Below are positions 4,672-13,068 of a stretch of DNA of 37,686 nt, piece after piece. Under the pieces are notes generated by a model. It ran no database searches. It had not been told where the DNA came from and worked only from the letters and a program-made list of their open reading frames with translations. The stretch is from Bacteroidales bacterium (GTDB lineage Bacteria; Bacteroidota; Bacteroidia; Bacteroidales; Marinilabiliaceae). The translations under genes were made by a program, and so were the position numbers. Numbering within the stretch: position 1 is the first letter of the stretch; each line of letters opens with the position of its first letter. Where the stretch lies: NCBI GenBank assembly GCA_024401365.1, contig JAKSLE010000023.1:1-37686 (forward strand), read 5' to 3'.

Positions 4672-4753
4672 AACTTTAGTCAAATTACTTACATATTGCC
4701 TCGGAAGTGTGCGTTTAATTTACAGTTCGTCAGCAATTCGCTTGATTTGCTTA

Positions 4754-4784
4754 CAAAGTTATATATTGATATGATATAATCAAA
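4754..4784 (-). promoter_or_regulatory. Bacteroidota-type promoter for gltB
   Basis: On the minus strand there is TTTG (4784-4781), 19 bp, then TAACTTTG (4761-4754). This matches the -33/-7 consensus of the primary sigma factor of Bacteroidota (TTTG, about 19-21 bp, TAnnTTTG). The start point would be near 4748, leaving a leader of about 75 nt before the gltB ATG. Confidence 0.75.
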
Positions 4785-4953
4785 CTGTTTGTAAGATTTA
4801 TTGACCGATTTAACATCAATTAAGGGTAATTTTACGTGTTCTACTTACAAAGTGTAATTGAATGACTATAATATTTGACAGATTATAACGAAATATAGAA
4901 GATGGCACTTCATGCCACGCCTCTACGCCTCTAATTGCTTGAACTTAGCAATG

Positions 4954-4961
4954 CAAAGTTA
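4954..4961 (-). promoter_or_regulatory. Possible second minus-strand -7 box beside the tandem repeats
   Basis: TAACTTTG is present on the minus strand, but the expected -33 TTTG is replaced by the end of the 10-bp tandem array at 4981-5030. It could be a distal gltB promoter dependent on a protein bound to the array, or the leftover promoter of a gene that has been lost. No reading frame of its own is seen downstream before gltB. Confidence 0.35.
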
Positions 4962-4980
4962 AAATGCCCATTTTCCTCAC

Positions 4981-5030
4981 TGTCCGCATTTGTCCGTTTC
5001 TGTCCGTTTTTGACCGCATTTGTCCGCTTT
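4981..5030. repeat. Five 10-bp tandem direct repeats (TGTCCGYWTT)
   Basis: Five head-to-tail units of exactly 10 bp occur: TGTCCGCATT, TGTCCGTTTC, TGTCCGTTTT, TGACCGCATT and TGTCCGCTTT. The core TGnCCG is kept in every unit. A period of one helical turn would put every unit on the same face of the DNA. The period is not a multiple of three, so coding repetition is unlikely. The array ends 19 bp from a minus-strand TAACTTTG box. Confidence 0.85.
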
Positions 5031-5066
5031 GAGTCAATTTTTTCAATGAATCACACCATTCTTCCA

Positions 5067-5121
5067 TTCTATATGTGTTCTATATGTCTAGTATATGGTT
5101 AGTATATGTCTAGCGTATAAC
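5067..5121. repeat. Five 11-bp degenerate tandem repeats around TATATG
   Basis: Five successive 11-bp units read TTCTATATGTG, TTCTATATGTC, TAGTATATGGT, TAGTATATGTC and TAGCGTATAAC. The last unit is the most degenerate. The array lies 36 bp from the 10-bp array and again has a period close to one helical turn. It resembles an iteron or multi-site operator. No initiator or recombinase gene is nearby. Between 5122 and 5279 I see no gene or structure. Confidence 0.75.
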
Positions 5122-5279
5122 ATCACGTAACTACTCCTTCGACATTGACAAGTCAGTTCACAAGCTCTGAAGTGGGTGAAATGTTTTGTCGTTCTTTATT
5201 GCGTCTAGAAAAAAATATTGAAATTCTGAGTTAAGTAGGTGTTGCACAATGTGTTACGTACTTTGGATTGGTATTAAAC

Positions 5280-5302
5280 ATTTCAAACATTTCAATATTT
5301 CA
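5280..5302 (+). repeat. Left arm of the 23-bp inverted repeat flanking the RM cassette
   Basis: The 23 bases beginning ATTTCAAACATTTCAATATT are the exact reverse complement of 13066-13088. Inside each arm the similarity continues imperfectly for about 30 bp. Both sides carry a G- or C-run, then GTA, a CTC-containing stretch and a GC-alternating tract (ACGCGTGCGCG on the left; a CGCGCG tract on the right). The -33 element of the cassette promoter starts 36 bp inside this arm. Confidence 0.85.
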
Positions 5303-5338
5303 GTGGGGTGTAGTTCTCATACGCGTGCGCGAGGGTGT

Positions 5339-5368
5339 TTTGATAATCCCTTTTTTTACATATCTTTG
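5339..5368 (+). promoter_or_regulatory. Promoter for the structured leader and hsdM
   Basis: TTTG (5339-5342), 18 bp, then TATCTTTG (5361-5368) gives a good fit to the Bacteroidota consensus. The predicted start is about 5374, which leaves nearly 400 nt of untranslated sequence before hsdM. Confidence 0.7.
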
Positions 5369-5373
5369 CCCTA

Positions 5374-5698
5374 TACAGCTAATTGTTAATACTAATTCGA
5401 TAGATTACTAAGACAATAAAGAAATAAAGTACATATAACATAGCAGCATCGGCTATCATTGTGGTCGTCAAGAAATGAAGCGTAGGAAACTTATATTATC
5501 TCTGATATACCCACAGCAATGATGGTTGGCGTTTTCGTATAGGTTAAAGCCGACGGAATATTGCCAATCCGTAAATAATGAAAGTTAGATGTCTTGCACT
5601 CGCTTGAGTGTGAGCATTTCATTTATTTACGGAGAGGTCAGAGATATTTCCTACGCTTCAGCCTCAGGCGACCGTAAGAGAGTGTTCACGCTCTTTTT
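5374..5698 (+). ncRNA. Highly structured leader RNA or free-standing ncRNA upstream of hsdM
   Basis: The sequence is rich in complementary segments. Outer stem P1 pairs 5459-5469 with 5667-5677 (11 bp, several G-U pairs). A 6x6 internal loop follows. P2 is perfect over 14 bp (5476-5489 with 5647-5660, TGAAGCGTAGGAAA). P3 pairs 5498-5506 with 5637-5645 (9 bp). The enclosed junction carries P4 (GTTGGC 5525-5530 with GCCGAC 5549-5554), P5 (5569-5583 with 5617-5632, 15 bp with one bulged base) and P6 within P5 (CACTC-GCTT-GAGTG, 5597-5610). A terminator-like hairpin closes the unit. I do not recognise an Rfam family. It could be an attenuating leader for the RM operon or an independent small RNA of about 320 nt. 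The pairing is seen directly; transcription and function are inferred. Confidence 0.6.
5676..5698 (+). terminator. Terminator-like hairpin with U-run at the end of the structured RNA
   Basis: AAGAG (5676-5680) pairs with CTCTT (5691-5695). GT/AC pairs lie inside, separated by an A-G mismatch around a tight loop, and TTT follows. The stem is short, so it may be only a partial terminator, as expected for an attenuator. Its first two bases overlap the foot of stem P1 (5667-5677). Confidence 0.5.
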
Positions 5699-5731
5699 AT
5701 GTGTCCGTACGTTTGCCGATAATATCATGTA

Positions 5732-5760
5732 TTAGATAGTCAGCTGAGCTAATTATCTAA
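5732..5760. promoter_or_regulatory. 29-bp dyad, putative operator or translational block before hsdM
   Basis: TTAGATA (5732-5738) and TATCTAA (5754-5760) are exact complements. Between them AGCT-G-AGCT is symmetric about the same centre at 5746, with only a 3-nt mismatch on each side. The dyad ends 7 nt before the hsdM ATG. It could bind a dimeric regulator or occlude ribosome access as RNA. The octamer AGCTAATT at its centre also occurs at 5377-5384, next to the predicted transcription start. Confidence 0.6.
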
Positions 5761-5767
5761 TTCTATT

Positions 5768-7327
5768 ATGAGCAAAGATCAGGAGCGTGCGGAACTGCAT
5801 CGTACTATTTGGGCTATAGCCAATGACCTTCGCGGTAGCGTGGACGGCTGGGATTTCAAGAACTATATTCTTGGTTTCCTTTTCTATCGTTTTATAAGTG
5901 AGGATTTGACCGCCCACCTCAATGCGACTGAGGAGGAGGCTGGCAACTCAGGTTTTAATTATGCGACAGATGTAACTGACGATGAGATTGACGAAGAGAT
6001 TCGTAGGTCGACCATTGATGAAAAGGGTTACTTTATATATCCTTCTGAATTGTTCCAGAATGTTGCGGCTAATGCCGAGACAAACGCAGATTTAAATATT
6101 TCACTTGCCGAGATTTTCAAGAATATAGAAGCTTCTGCTATAGGTACAGCAAGTGAGCAGGATATGAAGGGATTGTTTAGCGATATAGATGTGAACAGTC
6201 CAAAGCTTGGTGGTACACCTGCAAAGCGCAATGAGTTGCTAGCCAAGATTATGAAGAATATCGGTCAGATGGATCTGGGAGGCAATCTCCGTGATGCTCA
6301 GATTGATGCCTTCGGTGATGCTTATGAGTTCCTGATGACTATGTATGCCAGCAATGCTGGCAAGAGCGGTGGCGAGTTCTTTACTCCTCAGGAGGTAGCG
6401 GAACTTCTTGCTCGTATCGCTTGCGATGGCAAGAATCGTATTACTAAGGTATACGACCCAGCTTGCGGTTCTGGCTCGTTGCTTCTTAAGTTTTCCAAAA
6501 TCCTCGGCCCTGAGAAGGCAAAGGGTGTCTCTTTCTATGGTCAGGAGATAAATATCACGACATACAACCTTTGTCGTATCAATATGTTCCTGCACCATGT
6601 ACCATTCAATCAGTTCGACATCCAGCTTGGCGATACTCTTATTGAGCCAAAGCACTTAGGCGAGATTCCTTTCGACGCCATAGTAAGTAATCCGCCATAC
6701 TCAACACGCTGGGCTGGTGATGATAATCCGTTGCTTATCAACGACGACCGTTTCTCTCCGGCAGGTGTTCTCGCCCCTAAGACAAAGGCCGACCTAGCCT
6801 TTACGATGCATATCCTCTATAATCTCTCTACAACTGGTACTGCTGCCATAGTAGAGTTCCCTGGTGTACTGTATCGTCCGAACGCGGAGCGGAAGATTCG
6901 CCAGTATCTTATAGAGAACAACTATGTTGATACGGTTATACAACTTCCAGAAAATCTCTTCTTTGGTGTAAGTATTGGTACTTGCATTATTGTACTGAAA
7001 AAGAGTAAGGCCGACAACTCTGTGCTGTTCGTCGATGCAAGATGTGAATATGTAAAGAACGGCAATAAAAATCTTCTTACCGAAAATAATCTTGATACCA
7101 TATACAATGAATATCACAACCGAGAGGATGTCCAATACAAGGCAAAACTTGTAAGTAATACAGATATTCTTGCCAACGAATGTAATCTCTCAGTCTCTTC
7201 CTATGTAGAACAGGAGGACAAGAGGGAGAGGATAGATATTCTTTCTCTCAATCAAGAAATAAACAACTTGGTAACAGAAGGAATTTCACTTCGTGAGCGT
7301 ATCAATAATATAATTACAACACTTTAA
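5768..7327 (+). CDS. hsdM: Type I restriction-modification system, DNA adenine methyltransferase subunit
   Basis: HsdM methylates adenine within the bipartite site chosen by HsdS; M2S methylates and R2M2S also restricts. Residues 1-160 form the helical HsdM N-terminal domain (WAIANDLRGSVDGWDFKNYILG, of which the core is WDFKNYILG). The N6-adenine methyltransferase domain follows, with SAM-binding motif I DPACGSG at 230-236 and catalytic motif IV NPPY at 308-311. FFTPQEV at 204-210 is the usual lead-in. The length of 519 residues is normal. The ATG at 5768 is the only sensible start and lies 7 nt after the dyad. The hsdS gene follows after 7 nt, which indicates an operon. Confidence 0.97.
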   Translation: MSKDQERAELHRTIWAIANDLRGSVDGWDFKNYILGFLFYRFISEDLTAHLNATEEEAGNSGFNYATDVTDDEIDEEIRRSTIDEKGYFIYPSELFQNVAANAETNADLNISLAEIFKNIEASAIGTASEQDMKGLFSDIDVNSPKLGGTPAKRNELLAKIMKNIGQMDLGGNLRDAQIDAFGDAYEFLMTMYASNAGKSGGEFFTPQEVAELLARIACDGKNRITKVYDPACGSGSLLLKFSKILGPEKAKGVSFYGQEINITTYNLCRINMFLHHVPFNQFDIQLGDTLIEPKHLGEIPFDAIVSNPPYSTRWAGDDNPLLINDDRFSPAGVLAPKTKADLAFTMHILYNLSTTGTAAIVEFPGVLYRPNAERKIRQYLIENNYVDTVIQLPENLFFGVSIGTCIIVLKKSKADNSVLFVDARCEYVKNGNKNLLTENNLDTIYNEYHNREDVQYKAKLVSNTDILANECNLSVSSYVEQEDKRERIDILSLNQEINNLVTEGISLRERINNIITTL

Positions 7328-7334
7328 GCAAGTT

Positions 7335-8357
7335 ATGAAGACATTAGGTGATGTAATTAAAATAGAAACAGGGGAGCAGCTTAATAAAAGTGATATGCTC
7401 CCTGACGCAGAGCATCCTGTTGTTAATGGCGGTATCGACTTCTCTGGTTATACTGATAAATACAATAGTGAAGCAAATACTATAACCATTTCTCAAGGTG
7501 GCGCTTCCGCAGGATATGTAAATTGGCTAAATCAGAAATTTTGGGCTGGAGCTCATTGTTATGTGGTAACACCACTACCCAATAATGATGAAAGATTTCT
7601 ATATCATTTCATTAAGTCTCGCGAATACAACTTCATGAAGAACCAACAAGGTGCAGGCATACCAAGTTTAAATCGTTCAGAAGTATATAAAATAGAATTC
7701 CCAGATTATGACTACAGCAAGCAAAAGGAAATCGCTGAAATCCTAGACTCCTTCACCTCATTAATCACAAATCTTGAAACCGAATTGGCTTCAAGACAAA
7801 AGCAGTATGAGTATTATCGTAATAAACTGCTCTCCTTCAACGAGAATGACGAAACTGTGGAGTGGAAGACACTGGGGGATTTGTGCACAAGTATATCTTC
7901 AGGAAGGTCAACTTCGAGAGAGACAGAAGGGAAATATCCAGTATATGGTTCAACGGGTATCATAGCATACTCTGAAAATTATAGTTATACAAATACAAAT
8001 ATTCTAGTAGCGAGAGTAGGAGCAAATGCAGGTTATGTTCATAAGGCTGAAGGAGAATATGATGTAACTGATAATACATTGGTTCTTAGACTAAAAGGTC
8101 AATATATGTTAGAATATACATATTACTATCTAATAGAACATAATATCAGCCAATATGCTAAAGGAGGAGGACAACCATTGGTAACCGGAAAAGATTTGAA
8201 AGTAATACTAATTCCTATTCCATCCCTCCACCGTCAGCAAGAAATCGTCTCCTCCCTCGATACCTTCGAGTCCCTCATCTCCAACATCAAGCAGGAACTC
8301 GATGCCCGCAAGAAGCAATACGAATACTACAGAGAAAAACTTCTAACATTTGAATAA
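7335..8357 (+). CDS. hsdS: Type I restriction-modification system, specificity subunit
   Basis: HsdS contains two target recognition domains (TRDs) separated by helical conserved regions that set the spacing of the recognised half-sites. TRD1 covers residues 1-125 (GASAGYVNW). Conserved region 1 covers 129-170 (KEIAEILDSF ... QKQYEYYRNKLLSF). TRD2 begins at 177 with WKTLGDL and contains ARVGANAGYV. Conserved region 2 covers 299-340 (QQEIVSSLDTF ... KKQYEYYREKLLTF) and ends the protein. The total of 340 residues is on the short side for the family. The two conserved regions are alike as protein but have diverged as DNA, so there are no long internal repeats for recombination, and no second hsdS or recombinase gene lies here. 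It follows hsdM by 7 nt. Confidence 0.95.
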   Translation: MKTLGDVIKIETGEQLNKSDMLPDAEHPVVNGGIDFSGYTDKYNSEANTITISQGGASAGYVNWLNQKFWAGAHCYVVTPLPNNDERFLYHFIKSREYNFMKNQQGAGIPSLNRSEVYKIEFPDYDYSKQKEIAEILDSFTSLITNLETELASRQKQYEYYRNKLLSFNENDETVEWKTLGDLCTSISSGRSTSRETEGKYPVYGSTGIIAYSENYSYTNTNILVARVGANAGYVHKAEGEYDVTDNTLVLRLKGQYMLEYTYYYLIEHNISQYAKGGGQPLVTGKDLKVILIPIPSLHRQQEIVSSLDTFESLISNIKQELDARKKQYEYYREKLLTFE

Positions 8358-8459: not shown

Positions 8460-8810
8460 ATGGACAACAAAGGAAAATACGAGATACACGAAGATGACGC
8501 TCTGATGGCAAAAGAGACAGAAGCTGCCTATGCCATGACCGAGCCAATGCACGGTATGTCGGTTTTATTTCGTGATACGACTCCTACAAAAAACGCCAAC
8601 GAATCGGTAGCTCGTATTCTTGCTCGTACTCCTGAAGAGTTTGAGGACATGAAAAAGCATAGTTTTTATGCAAAAGGCACCCCTTTCCCCGACCAACCTC
8701 AGACTTGGGATGAAGTATGGAAAGAGGTGGATAACCTCGATGAGGAAACCTATTTGGACGAATCCGAGACCAATACAGCGTTGGAAAGGCTATGGAGAGT
8801 CTTAGCGTAA
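8460..8810 (+). CDS. Putative antitoxin partner of the RelE/ParE-like toxin
   Basis: This is a 116-residue, clearly acidic protein (many Asp and Glu, for example EIHEDDALMAKETEAAY and DNLDEETYLDESET). I do not recognise a named DNA-binding fold. The antitoxin role rests on context: a small acidic protein directly upstream, with its end overlapping the toxin gene by 19 nt, behind its own promoter. The C-terminal half (PDQPQTWDEVWKEVDNL) looks like an extended segment that could wrap a toxin. The overlap implies translational coupling. It could alternatively be an unrelated accessory protein of the RM system. Confidence 0.6.
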   Translation: MDNKGKYEIHEDDALMAKETEAAYAMTEPMHGMSVLFRDTTPTKNANESVARILARTPEEFEDMKKHSFYAKGTPFPDQPQTWDEVWKEVDNLDEETYLDESETNTALERLWRVLA

Positions 8811-9091
8811 AGACAGAGGCGAGAGTCATCCGAAAACTCAATAATGCAACCTTGTGGTATCTGGAGAATCGAGACCGTAGTTTCGTGGAGACGATGCTGA
8901 AGAACTATCAGGAAGCGGTTGTGTCCCTTTCTCATACCCCAACCATGGGAAATGTAGTAAGAAAAAACCAGACAAGGGAGTATCGTACTTACGTCGTCCA
9001 TAAGAAATGCATCCTTGTTTATTGGTACAATAGCAAAAACCTGTATATTACAGACTTGATTTTTACGAATACTTTCAAGGATAGGTACTGA
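8792..9091 (+). CDS. RelE/ParE-family toxin-like protein
   Basis: The protein has 99 residues, is basic and resembles the RelE/ParE fold: an N-terminal helical hairpin (KTEARVIRKLNNATLWYLEN), then strands ending in YRTYVVHKKCILVYWYNSKNLYITDLIFT. Family members cleave ribosome-bound mRNA (RelE) or poison gyrase (ParE); which applies here cannot be told from sequence. Length is typical. The gene begins inside the end of the upstream acidic gene and stops 60 nt before hsdR. It sits between hsdS and hsdR in the same orientation, so loss of the cassette would also lose the antitoxin. Confidence 0.75.
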   Translation: MESLSVKTEARVIRKLNNATLWYLENRDRSFVETMLKNYQEAVVSLSHTPTMGNVVRKNQTREYRTYVVHKKCILVYWYNSKNLYITDLIFTNTFKDRY

Positions 9092-9151: not shown

Positions 9152-12100
9152 ATGGCAACATACGACCTTATATCCGAGAACGACGAAAGTACAGTAGTCG
9201 CTCAATTCGACAGACCTCCGTTCGCTAGCGAAGGAAATTATATTTCAGAGAAAAAACTCGAAGATAAGTTCATAACCCTACTGGAGCAGCAGCGTTACGA
9301 GTTTGTCCTCATTACCTCCGAGGCAGAGCTTGTCGCCAATCTCCGTAAGCAGATAGAGAAACTCAATAGTGTCTCTTTCAATGATGGCGAGTGGAAACGT
9401 TTTTTCAACACTAATATAGCAAAGCCTAATGCTGGCATTGTAGAGAAGACTCGCATTATTCAGGAGGACCCTCGTTTTACCTTTACCTTCGATGATGGCA
9501 AGATGGTAAACATCATGCTGCTCGACAAGAAAAATATTCACGAGAATATCCTTCAGGTTACACGCCAGTATAAGACTGATGGCGGTAATGCCTCTAACCG
9601 CTACGATGTGACTATCCTTGTCAATGGCTTGCCTTTGGTCCATGTGGAGCTGAAAAAGCCTGGTGTAGATATTCGTGAGGCCTTCAACCAGATAAAGAGA
9701 TACAACAGAGATTCGTTCTGGGCAGATAACGGATTATTTGAATATGTTCAGATATATGTTATCAGCAACGGCACATATACGAAATACTATAGTAACACTA
9801 CCCGCAACCTACATCTGCACGAGGAAGATGAAAGGCAGAAGAAAGGGCAGGTAGTAAGTAAGTCTTTCGAATTTACCTCTTGGTGGACCGACGCGAAGAA
9901 CAAGAAGATAATGATGCTGGAGGACTTTACCAGCACATTCTTTGCTAAGCATACCATTCTGAGTATACTGACACGATTCTGCGTATTCACTGTAGACAAG
10001 AATCTGCTAGTCATGCGTCCATACCAGATTGCGGCTACTGAGAAGATTCTGAACCGTATCAAGATTGCCAATAATGAGAAGAGATATGGTACAGTAGGTG
10101 CTGGCGGCTATATATGGCATACTACAGGTTCGGGAAAGACACTGACCTCTTTCAAAACATCAATGCTGGCTAGTCAGTTGCCTTTCGTGGATAAGGTGCT
10201 TTTTGTTGTCGACCGTAAGGATCTCGACTACCAGACTATGCGCGAGTACGACAACTTCCAGAAGGATGCAGCCAATAGCAATACAAGTGTGGCTGTATTG
10301 GAGAGGCAGTTGAAAGACCCATCGTGCAAGATTATCATTACCACTATCCAGAAACTCTCTATCCTCGTGAACCGCAAGCAGGATATGGAGGTGTTTAATC
10401 AGCAGGTGGTTATGATTTTCGATGAGTGCCACCGTAGCCAGTTCGGCGATATGCACACCTCCATAACCAAGAAGTTCAAGAAGTACTATATCTTTGGCTT
10501 CACAGGCACACCTATCTTTCTTGAAAATATAACCTCAAACAAGCCTGGACTGTTGACTACCCGTGATGCTTTCGGCGACTGTCTGCACACATACACTATC
10601 ATCAATGCTATTCAGGATAAGAACGTATTGCCATTCCACGTAGAGTATATACGTACCATGAGGGAAAAGGAGGGTGTTCTGGACGAGATGGTGGATGATA
10701 TTGACCGCGAGCGCATTATGCACGACCCTAAGTACATAAGCAATATCGTTACCTATATACTTAAGAATTTCGGCAAGAAGACTAAGCGCAACAGCACCTA
10801 TCAGGTAAAAGACCAACGTCTGAATGGCTTCAACTCAATCTTTGCCACTGCATCTATTGATATGGCGAAGCTGTACTACAATGAGTTTAAGCGACAGATG
10901 CAGTATATACCAGAGGAAAGTCGTCTGAAAGTGGCCATGATATATAGTTACGGAGCCAATGATGAAGACCCTCTAGATGGTGAGCTGTTTGACGAGAATC
11001 CAGAGAACACAACTACACTCAGCGCCACTGACCAAGCAGCACTACAGCAGTGCATAGAGGACTACAACGATATGTTTGGCTGTAATTTCAGTACCGGAGC
11101 TAAGGAATTTCAGGCTTTCTATAAGGATGTCTCTAAGCGCATGAAAAACCGTGAACTTGATTTGCTTATAGTAGTAAATATGTTCCTGACGGGCTTTGAT
11201 GCTCCAACGCTTAATACACTCTGGGTAGACAAGAACCTGAAGATGCACGGTCTGTTGCAGGCATACAGCCGTACAAACCGAATACTTAACTCAGTAAAGA
11301 CTTTCGGCAACATTATCTGTTTCCGTAACCTTGAAGATGCTACCAATGCAGCTATTGGCAGGTTCGGTAACAATGATACTTCGGGTATTGTCTTGCTTCG
11401 CACATTCGAAGAGTACTATAATGGTTATTCCGACGAAGAAGAGTATCATAAGGGATATAAGGAGGCGGTAGAGGAACTATTGGCCAAATATCCTATAGGA
11501 GAGGATATCATTGGCGATGAAGCCAAGAAGGATTTTGTGAAGGAATACTCCTACATAATGAAGTTGTTCAATATTCTTTCGGCCTTCGATGCCTTTGAAG
11601 GACAAGAGATATTGAGCGAGGATGAACGCCAGCATTATGCAAGCGCCTATATTGAAATCTATCATGAGTTCAAGAAAACTAAGGAGGGCAAGGCAGAAGA
11701 TGTGAATGATGATATCGTCTTTGAGATGGAACTCATCAAGCAAGACGAAATAAGTATCGACCGCATCTTGTGGTTGGTCAACGAGTATGCGAAGAGCCGC
11801 AAAGGGGATCAGGAGCTTGTTGCAAAGATTAAAAAATCCATCGATGCCAGCCCCGACCTACGCAACAAGAAGGAACTCATTGAGAGGTTCATTGAAAATA
11901 TGACCGTAGGCAGTGAGGTAGATGAAGCATGGGTAGAGTATATAGAAGAGCAGAAGGCACAGGAGCTCCAGAAGATAATAGATGAGGAAAATTTGAAGCC
12001 TCTGGAAACAAGAAACTTCATGGATATAGCCTTCCGCAGCGGTTTCATCAGTATGTCTGGTACAGCATTCTCACAGATACTCCCTGCCATGTCGCGTTTT

Positions 12101-12739
12101 GCCAAAGATGGTGTACGCGAGAAGAAACGTCAGGTGGTCTATGAGAAACTGAGCGCTTATCTAGCCAAGTTCAAGGATTTAGGTACAGACAACCTTGATA
12201 ATGATGAAGATACAATGTGGAATATCCCCGACCCTGAGCCAATAGAAAAGATGGAGACTGTAAAAGAGGCTCCAAAACCAATGGTAGGTGATAATGGTGG
12301 AGTAAAAGCCATCTCTATCTATCAGCCGTGGGCTCAGATGCTTGCGTGTGGTATCACACAGGTAGAGAACAGAAACTGGACAGTAGACGACAGAGGTACA
12401 TTCTTGATTGCTGCCAGCAGTGTAAAACTGGATTGGGAGAAACTCGACCCAGCAGCAAGAGGGGAATACAAGAAGTACCAGAAGTTGGGCATCTTGCCTG
12501 ACTATGATGACCTCCCTACAAATGCCATTGTCGGTCAGGCAGATTTGGTAGGTATCGTCAATAAGTGCCGCCTTGTAGGTTTCAATCCTGCCTTCAAGCA
12601 TCATTTCGTAGTAAAGAATGCCAAGGTTCTAGATGAACCGATACTCAATCATCAGACAGGAAGTAAATTCTACGAGACAGAGATACATCCTGAGACGATG
12701 CCTGCAGCGCATAAAGCAGAACCAACCGTTGAACTATAA
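9152..12739 (+). CDS. hsdR: Type I restriction subunit R with C-terminal ASCH domain
   Basis: HsdR is the motor-nuclease of type I systems: it translocates DNA using ATP and cuts at a distance from unmethylated sites. The N-terminal nuclease shows the PD-(D/E)xK pattern with Asp152 and Glu166-Leu-Lys168. The helicase has Walker A HTTGSGKT (323-330), DECH box (424-427), FTGTP (450-454) and FLTGFDAPTLNTL plus QAYSRTNR in the second RecA-like domain. A helical region follows. Residues 1051-1195 form a separate domain, VKAISIYQPWAQMLACGI ... QVENRNW ... GTFLIAASS ... AIVGQADLVGIV, which matches the ASCH (PUA-like) pattern. The 1195 residues exceed ordinary HsdR length by about the size of this domain. 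A linker rich in Glu, Pro and Asp (about 1015-1050) joins it. The gene directly follows the toxin gene. Confidence 0.93.
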   Translation: MATYDLISENDESTVVAQFDRPPFASEGNYISEKKLEDKFITLLEQQRYEFVLITSEAELVANLRKQIEKLNSVSFNDGEWKRFFNTNIAKPNAGIVEKTRIIQEDPRFTFTFDDGKMVNIMLLDKKNIHENILQVTRQYKTDGGNASNRYDVTILVNGLPLVHVELKKPGVDIREAFNQIKRYNRDSFWADNGLFEYVQIYVISNGTYTKYYSNTTRNLHLHEEDERQKKGQVVSKSFEFTSWWTDAKNKKIMMLEDFTSTFFAKHTILSILTRFCVFTVDKNLLVMRPYQIAATEKILNRIKIANNEKRYGTVGAGGYIWHTTGSGKTLTSFKTSMLASQLPFVDKVLFVVDRKDLDYQTMREYDNFQKDAANSNTSVAVLERQLKDPSCKIIITTIQKLSILVNRKQDMEVFNQQVVMIFDECHRSQFGDMHTSITKKFKKYYIFGFTGTPIFLENITSNKPGLLTTRDAFGDCLHTYTIINAIQDKNVLPFHVEYIRTMREKEGVLDEMVDDIDRERIMHDPKYISNIVTYILKNFGKKTKRNSTYQVKDQRLNGFNSIFATASIDMAKLYYNEFKRQMQYIPEESRLKVAMIYSYGANDEDPLDGELFDENPENTTTLSATDQAALQQCIEDYNDMFGCNFSTGAKEFQAFYKDVSKRMKNRELDLLIVVNMFLTGFDAPTLNTLWVDKNLKMHGLLQAYSRTNRILNSVKTFGNIICFRNLEDATNAAIGRFGNNDTSGIVLLRTFEEYYNGYSDEEEYHKGYKEAVEELLAKYPIGEDIIGDEAKKDFVKEYSYIMKLFNILSAFDAFEGQEILSEDERQHYASAYIEIYHEFKKTKEGKAEDVNDDIVFEMELIKQDEISIDRILWLVNEYAKSRKGDQELVAKIKKSIDASPDLRNKKELIERFIENMTVGSEVDEAWVEYIEEQKAQELQKIIDEENLKPLETRNFMDIAFRSGFISMSGTAFSQILPAMSRFAKDGVREKKRQVVYEKLSAYLAKFKDLGTDNLDNDEDTMWNIPDPEPIEKMETVKEAPKPMVGDNGGVKAISIYQPWAQMLACGITQVENRNWTVDDRGTFLIAASSVKLDWEKLDPAARGEYKKYQKLGILPDYDDLPTNAIVGQADLVGIVNKCRLVGFNPAFKHHFVVKNAKVLDEPILNHQTGSKFYETEIHPETMPAAHKAEPTVEL

Positions 12740-12753
12740 TAAATTTACAACCT

Positions 12754-13068
12754 ATGAGAGAACTAAATCCAAGTATTGAATTACAAGAACTACTAGCGCG
12801 TCAGATTTTCAACGTGCTGCAAGGCCCAGTAACAGAGATTGTCCGTCAGCAGTGCGAAGGCATTGGGTTGGACGTGAACTTTCGCAGTGTGATGGAAGGC
12901 AACAGCCTGAAGGTGAGTGAGACATTACTCCCTCAGTTTAGGGTGGATTGTGCCATCCGCAAAACCGGTGACAAGTGCTCTATCAAAGTAGAAAAGAAAG
13001 AAGATTTTCTTTGGAAGTTCCAATATTTTTTCTATTCGCGCGCAGGCGTGAGAGTGGTACTGGGGTGA
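12754..13068 (+). CDS. Hypothetical 104-residue protein, end formed by the flanking repeat
   Basis: I do not recognise a family. It starts 14 nt after hsdR and so belongs to the same transcript. Residues 1-80 look like a real folded protein (helix IELQELLARQIFNVLQG, then RQQCEGIGLDVNF). The last 15-20 residues (FFYSRAGVRVVLG) are encoded by the imperfect inner part of the right repeat, and the stop lies 3 bases into the perfect 23-bp arm. The original C-terminus may have been replaced when the cassette inserted or recombined. It could also be an accessory protein of the RM system. Confidence 0.6.
   Translation: MRELNPSIELQELLARQIFNVLQGPVTEIVRQQCEGIGLDVNFRSVMEGNSLKVSETLLPQFRVDCAIRKTGDKCSIKVEKKEDFLWKFQYFFYSRAGVRVVLG

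Follow-up and report, generated by a model that had tools for sequence, protein, structure and literature searches.

Positions 5374–5698 (plus strand) of a 37,686-nucleotide stretch of DNA from a Bacteroidales bacterium (contig JAKSLE010000023.1, here called the window) encode a strongly folded RNA directly upstream of a type I restriction-modification (R-M) operon. We found that this RNA is one copy of a widespread, apparently undescribed family of structured leader RNAs. From sequence comparison we favour, with moderate confidence, the reading that the leader acts in cis and works by transcription attenuation of the operon that starts with hsdM, because the RNA lies in front of a gene, is present in separate copies for separate operons, has a promoter before and seldom after it, and contains a terminator pairing that can be exchanged for another.

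The first-pass annotation of the window had described a strongly folded RNA between its own promoter and terminator. The folding energy of the plus strand was −105.4 kcal/mol compared with −69.9±4.9 kcal/mol for shuffled sequences (z −7.3; none of 100 shuffles was as good), which bears out the folding claim; the minus strand had a z of −4.7. The 14-bp perfect long-range stem (P2 in Table 1) is exact in the sequence. Its inner extension of 9 bp (P3) was recovered as proposed, whereas the outer extension of 11 bp was not, and 7 bp of pairing (P1) were modelled in its place. Both borders are also present, namely a promoter of the Bacteroidetes type, compared with the consensus given in passages of PMC7366714, and a terminator-like hairpin. 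As had been stated, no protein frame explains the pairing, the longest plus-strand frame inside the RNA being 36 codons; a short conserved peptide was rejected for the same reason and because its frame is broken, by eye, by a one-base difference among relatives. Identity as transfer RNA or transfer-messenger RNA was likewise rejected.

The relatives preserve the helices through compensatory change. In 54 aligned sequences, and with both pseudoknots included, 95.0 % of cells were paired and 45 of 55 pairs changed on both sides, a result that none of 500 shuffles reached; sliding the partner by one to three columns gave 36–43 % paired cells. Because the nested helices guided the alignment, it is biased towards them; the pseudoknots lie outside the model. 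These two pseudoknots, PK1 and PK2, go beyond the structure first proposed. For PK2, which occurs as GAGG/CCTC, GGGG/CCCC and other pairs, none of 5000 permutations was as good in any subset of sequences, and the same was found for PK1 in the 21 divergent members of the family. Hairpin P6 co-varies at all six modelled pairs.

The 3′ strand of P6 is also complementary to a segment of the terminator region (T), which resembles a copy of the P6 5′ strand. In the 52 full members, pairing of the P6 3′ strand with its own T averaged −17.4 kcal/mol and with foreign T −13.9 kcal/mol (0 of 5000 permutations as good), while the control pairing of the P6 5′ strand with T was not significant (601 of 5000). 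In 48 of the 52, this exchange helix was not equalled in energy by any other window sampled from that part of the transcript. An ungapped helix of at least 10 bp, the longest length tested, with G-U pairs allowed, was found in 39 of 52 members, and 46 distinct helices of 6–10 bp occurred among the 52. Six further copies stood outside the models and the pairing tests, and five of them have the exchange helix by eye; in L131 and L146 it was seen by eye with quite different letters. Because the P6 3′ strand and T can each take one partner at a time, neither P6 nor the terminator hairpin can coexist with the exchange helix. Such mutually exclusive helices, one of them a terminator, are what is expected of an attenuator leader; they are weak or absent in about nine members. 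An uninterrupted run of at least four T residues was present in 40 of the 46 relatives with a gene.

As also expected of an attenuator leader, the structured element is conserved upstream of same-strand genes. A gene with an ATG start was found for 46 of 52 members and begins 25–128 nt (median 74) past the modelled RNA, in a search confined to the strand of the RNA and to frames of at least 80 codons, or at least 40 if cut by a contig end. Listings of both strands placed the nearest long frame on the RNA strand in nearly all loci; the exceptions (L045, L059 and L110) have a same-strand methylase frame as well. The promoter motif TAnnTTTG occurred in the 170 nt that precede the RNA in 32 of 52 members (3.8 expected from shuffling) and in 5 of 46 spacers between RNA and gene (1.8 expected). 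Of the 46 spacers, 37 contain GATAG (2.4 expected). The 55 nt that lead up to the ATG have a tendency to fold, with a mean z of −2.0. A second switch, formed by pairing of CTATC in the RNA with this GATAG, was considered and is unsupported, since a change of CTATC to CTATT leaves GATAG unaltered.

With blastn, counting the own genome, the RNA was found in 4 of 15 genus genomes and 5 of 71 family genomes, the fifth as a 24-base match only. A covariance model of the four sequences (R1) matched 12 of 393 genomes of the order at E≤0.1, and six of these held up (the own genome, G088, G124, G269, G360 and G431). An exact-pattern scan of contigs gave 40 stretches, of which 31, together with the window, matched R1 at E<1e-20; the other nine were truncated copies, the divergent L054, the weak L051, or stretches with no match to any model (L043, labelled Polaribacter, and L073, labelled Pseudomonas). 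Model R2 was built from 32 sequences and omitted L034, L045 and L066 (long insertions), L048, L054, and the truncated or contig-end copies L039, L042, L052, L053 and L071. At E≤0.01 it matched 25 of 393 genomes of the order and 5 of 395 of the class, the weakest of these tentatively. One match was a second, divergent copy in the own genome (G000:C45; E 5.9e-14), 5′ of an EcoRI-type methylase. This long clade thus has 52 full members, 31 main and 21 divergent, mostly from Bacteroidales; they are the 54 aligned rows minus L048, a near copy of L046, and the truncated L042:3483-3666. Weak matches (G393, G407, G174, G265, G351, G310, G482 and L051) were not counted, L054 (Saccharofermentans, E 1e-11) was set aside as possible contamination, and L125 was rejected as a relative as it resembles coding sequence. 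No match to the RNA was obtained in collections of phages, plasmids and viral contigs.

On the contig shared by L030 and L042, two copies (L030 12019–12215 and 12484–12667) stand in tandem 5′ of one DEAD-HNH helicase operon, the outer one truncated. In L072 the copy (from 5274) is followed by a short remnant of 19 codons that resembles the start of a PLD helicase, so that the RNA may outlive its operon.

In 39 of 46 members, the first gene behind the long-clade RNA encodes a methyltransferase of an R-M system or a restriction helicase (types I, II and III and DISARM-like). Thirty-six of these assignments had a profile match, which for L045, L059 and L064 was below the Pfam cut-off, and those of L038, L057 and L066 were made by eye. 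Thirteen of the genes encode EcoRI-type methylases; the others include type III mod or res, MmeI-like enzymes, PLD/SNF2 helicases (followed in L008 and L027 by a methyltransferase gene) and a DrmD-like helicase (L069, from Parabacteroides distasonis An863). The first-pass annotation had tied the RNA to type I R-M, and this proved too narrow: hsdM is the first gene in three of 46 (the window and L056 by profile, L038 by eye), and the systems behind most relatives are of type II, of type III or helicase-based. Among 30 HsdM loci of the family chosen regardless of the RNA (from 121 HsdM_N matches, which contain the RNA-bearing HsdM of the window and of L056 outside the 30), the RNA was found in none. 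EcoRI-methylase loci of the order, chosen in the same manner (30 of 39 matches), had the RNA at E<0.001 in 11 of 30, directly upstream in ten and with a small gene between in L136.

Confinement of the RNA to R-M operons was overturned by a sister clade of shorter RNAs, which stand mostly in front of other genes. Model R3, made from seven shorter relatives without P4, matched 65 of 178 genomes of the order and 19 of 178 of the phylum at E≤0.01, with at least 17 matches in each of two genomes. In 35 matches outside the founder loci, 36 of 39 pairs changed on both sides and 88.9 % of cells were paired (0 of 500 shuffles as high). The pairing of P6 with T was found here as well (−16.0 own versus −12.8 foreign; 0 of 5000 permutations; at least 8 bp in 29 of 35). 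Ten proteins encoded behind these RNAs were scanned; products of the first genes include lipoprotein-like and secreted repeat proteins, one PLD/SNF2 helicase, a sigma factor, a TonB-receptor plug protein and, by eye, a small helix-turn-helix (HTH)-like protein. A common origin of the two clades is likely, though not proven, because R2 finds the seven founders weakly (E 1e-7 to 0.005) and R3 gives no match to the window RNA at E 0.001.

One 1.9-Mb genome (G148) holds at least 14 short-clade matches (L237–L249); the 13 copies that were read have upstream sequence in common, and several sit where a contig begins, a pattern reminiscent of a spreading repeat. Copies from both clades (L114, L121 and L255) are followed by a very small HTH-like protein that looks alike in each case, with Pfam HTH_35 below cut-off for two and no match for L255.

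We propose that transcription would start near 5372, judging from the promoter, and that RNA polymerase would first make the P1–P6 domain with PK1 and PK2 and then meet the terminator. By default P6 would be closed and the terminator hairpin formed, so that transcription stops and R-M is off or low. The energies in the window (P6 −13.0 and terminator hairpin −9.7, versus −18.6 kcal/mol for the exchange helix, with no pseudoknot penalty) favour such an off-by-default state. A signal, which may be a ligand, a protein or a state of RNA polymerase, would open P6; its freed 3′ strand would then pair with T, break the terminator hairpin and allow transcription of the operon. The earlier suggestion of a regulatory leader gains from the position before genes, from promoters that lie before and rarely after the RNA, and from exclusive pairings over the terminator, while the signal that it would sense is presumed. 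Since R-M and helicase-based systems that are unrelated to each other use the same module, the signal probably concerns the cell in general rather than being a product of one system, and feedback by the product of a single R-M system is unlikely.

Several observations weigh against this attenuation reading. PK1 is uninformative in the 31 main members, where 4766 of 5000 permutations were equal or better because its 5′ side is invariant. L108, L109, L110 and L154 share about 5 good bp and have no clean alternative helix (in L154 these are the only exchange pairing), and in L041, L046, L062, L067 and L072 the alternative helix is short or bulged. As the U-run follows the alternative helix, this helix could itself promote termination, which would reverse the sign of the switch. 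The window is among the five loci with TAnnTTTG in the spacer (TACGTTTG, 5708–5715), a possible separate promoter. Seven of 46 long-clade first genes are not R-M genes: an SPFH protein (L047), an acyltransferase (L031), a sulfatase-fold protein (L116), a GDSL esterase (L120), an ion channel followed by an HSDR_N protein (L041), a UvrD-type helicase near GajB models (L055) and an unassigned 138-aa open reading frame (L062). Finally, the short clade precedes many non-defence genes.

The TAnnTTTG in the window spacer, the promoter and terminator that bracket the RNA, and the conserved GATAG hairpin, a possible separate control site in front of the ATG, would also suit an independent structured small RNA that acts in trans or as partner of the R-M proteins, with the operon promoter in the spacer. 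We consider this unlikely: the −7 box is found in so few spacers, GATAG does not track the change from CTATC to CTATT, the unrelated downstream proteins make a common protein partner unlikely, and the copies within a genome are separate, with an operon of its own behind each. For this last reason the first-pass alternative of a small RNA component of the defence cassette is not favoured either.

Structured RNAs in front of terminators are also known from the put and EAR elements, which confer processive antitermination. A fold of this kind would load on RNA polymerase and carry it past the adjacent and later terminators of long operons, and a large pseudoknotted RNA before a terminator and long operons, used by unrelated genes, fits such action on RNA polymerase. 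The put and EAR RNAs share with our RNA the place before terminators and the use by unrelated or long operons, and differ from it in length and fold. In the leader described here the terminator pairs with the RNA itself, and its specific complementarity to P6 would be needless for an antiterminator; several short-clade genes moreover look, by eye, like short units. We judge this explanation rather improbable. A static tertiary clamp or long-range terminator made by the P6 3′ strand and T, lowering expression constitutively, would fit the U-run directly after the exchange helix and the mean energies (−17.4 kcal/mol for the duplex with T, versus −7.7 for the local hairpin, −12.1 for the duplex of the P6 strands and −15.0 for the whole P6 hairpin), yet it would forgo P6, which co-varies as a hairpin so that both partners appear to be selected, and is the most doubtful of the explanations.

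Returning to the attenuator, riboswitches and other attenuator leaders exchange terminator and antiterminator helices in front of genes. Our RNA resembles them in its 5′ structured domain, its terminator, a mutually exclusive helix and its position before a gene. Unlike in those leaders, an internal hairpin supplies the switch strand with its 3′ side, and the exchange crosses P1, P2, P3 and P5; the leader also serves unrelated types of R-M operon and is without a known ligand. Attenuator leaders are a known kind; what appears to be new is this family and the fact that R-M systems use it. A scan with Rfam 15 at gathering thresholds gave no match in the window, and so none to a housekeeping RNA, and none in 20 loci with relatives. 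Below threshold, 4690–5780 matched two eukaryotic small nucleolar RNA models, both outside 5374–5698 (SCARNA7 at E 0.00035, far below its own threshold), and 14 loci added a microRNA model, also outside the RNA. In 20 short-clade loci the single match at threshold was DUF805 RNA, a known cis-regulatory RNA (RF03081, 79 bits; L197 1371–1439, minus strand), separate from the leader RNA and located between it and the gene; it was not seen in the other short-clade loci searched.

The RNA is not described in the published work that we compared, including portions of PMC8040213 (its supplements aside, where an unnamed candidate is possible), PMC12707154, PMC3874152 and PMC7366714. The portions of PMC12707154, which reviews R-M biology (2025), contain none of the words riboswitch, attenuation and leader; in those of PMC3874152 riboswitch does not occur, and leader, terminator and attenuat- occur once each. 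Known R-M regulation shares with our proposal the control of R-M expression, the means named in these portions being antisense RNA and start-site hairpins. The RNAs of type III toxin-antitoxin systems, for instance ToxI upstream of ToxN (passages of PMC8040213), are similar in that a structured RNA lies directly 5′ of a defence gene; they differ in that we noticed no short repeat units here, without a dedicated test, and that the proteins downstream of our leader are mutually unrelated.

Table 1. Features of the leader RNA and the R-M operon in the window
Feature	Position	Strand	Details
Promoter, Bacteroidetes type	5339–5368	+	TTTG 5339–5342; TATCTTTG 5361–5368
5′ leader	5374–5437	+	A-rich, largely unpaired; AAAGAAATAAA...TAACAT kept in the four closest relatives
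Structured leader RNA domain	5438–5680	+	span of models R1 and R2
PK1, 5′ strand	5453–5461	+	CTATCATTG; partner 5517–5525
P1, 5′ strand	5463–5469	+	partner 5667–5673; 7/7 modelled pairs change on both sides (54 sequences)
P2, 5′ strand	5476–5489	+	partner 5647–5660, 14 bp; 11/12 modelled pairs change on both sides
P3, 5′ strand	5497–5505	+	partner 5638–5646; 6/6 modelled pairs change on both sides
PK1, 3′ strand	5517–5525	+	CAATGATGG; final two bases also in P4
Hairpin P4	5524–5569	+	5524–5530/5563–5569; missing from the short sister clade
P5 arm	5570–5631	+	5570–5578/5623–5631; bears P6; 6/6 modelled pairs change on both sides
Hairpin P6	5588–5617	+	5588–5601/5606–5617; 3′ strand GAGTGTGAGC complementary to 5684–5693, two G-U
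PK2, 5′ strand	5634–5637	+	GAGG; partner CCTC 5662–5665; 2/4 pairs change on both sides
PK2, 3′ strand	5662–5665	+	CCTC
Terminator-like hairpin and U-run	5676–5698	+	
Switch strand T	5684–5693	+	GTTCACGCTC; partner of P6 3′ strand or part of terminator hairpin, never both
Inverted repeat with GATAG	5731–5761	+	immediately 5′ of the start codon
hsdM, first gene of R-M operon	5768–7327	+	PF02384, PF12161; PADLOC MTase_I
hsdS	7335–8357	+	PF01420
hsdR	9152–12739	+	PF04313, PF18766, PF12008

The surroundings of the leader contain further features. A short run of GTCCGTTT/GTCCGCATTT-like repeats lies in the gap 5′ of the RNA (4975–5035). Between hsdS and hsdR (8460–9091) are two small overlapping genes that look by eye like an antitoxin and a RelE-like toxin and have no Pfam match. 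The end of HsdR (about 12400–12739), past the Pfam EcoR124_C match, has by eye the look of what we take to be an ASCH-type domain. A 104-aa open reading frame at 12754–13068 resembles by eye the N-terminus of a 406-aa M48/TerB protein in L030 and has the look of a truncated remnant. A retron or another non-coding RNA associated with reverse transcriptase was rejected, no reverse transcriptase domain being found in 15 scanned window proteins or in the scanned genes downstream of relatives.

It has long been asked how R-M systems can be turned on safely after entry into a new host. The answers so far, as given in portions of PMC12707154 and PMC3874152, are C proteins, autorepression by the methyltransferase and antisense RNAs. 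The RNAs described here appear to form an undescribed class of leaders, whose short clade alone matches 65 of 178 sampled genomes of the order. That the long clade stands before R-M and possible anti-phage genes and the short clade before those of surface and secreted proteins could, speculatively, be a clue to the signal. Tentatively, and with less conviction than for attenuation itself, we suggest that both belong to an ancient, Bacteroidota-wide group of switchable, riboswitch-like leaders with a common signal, of which the pseudoknotted clade would have become a plug-in control module for all types of R-M and helicase-based defence operon, making unrelated, horizontally moved systems obey one host signal on arrival in a new cell. 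For Bacteroidales, an RNA module common to systems of types I, II and III and to helicase-based ones would answer that question in a general way.
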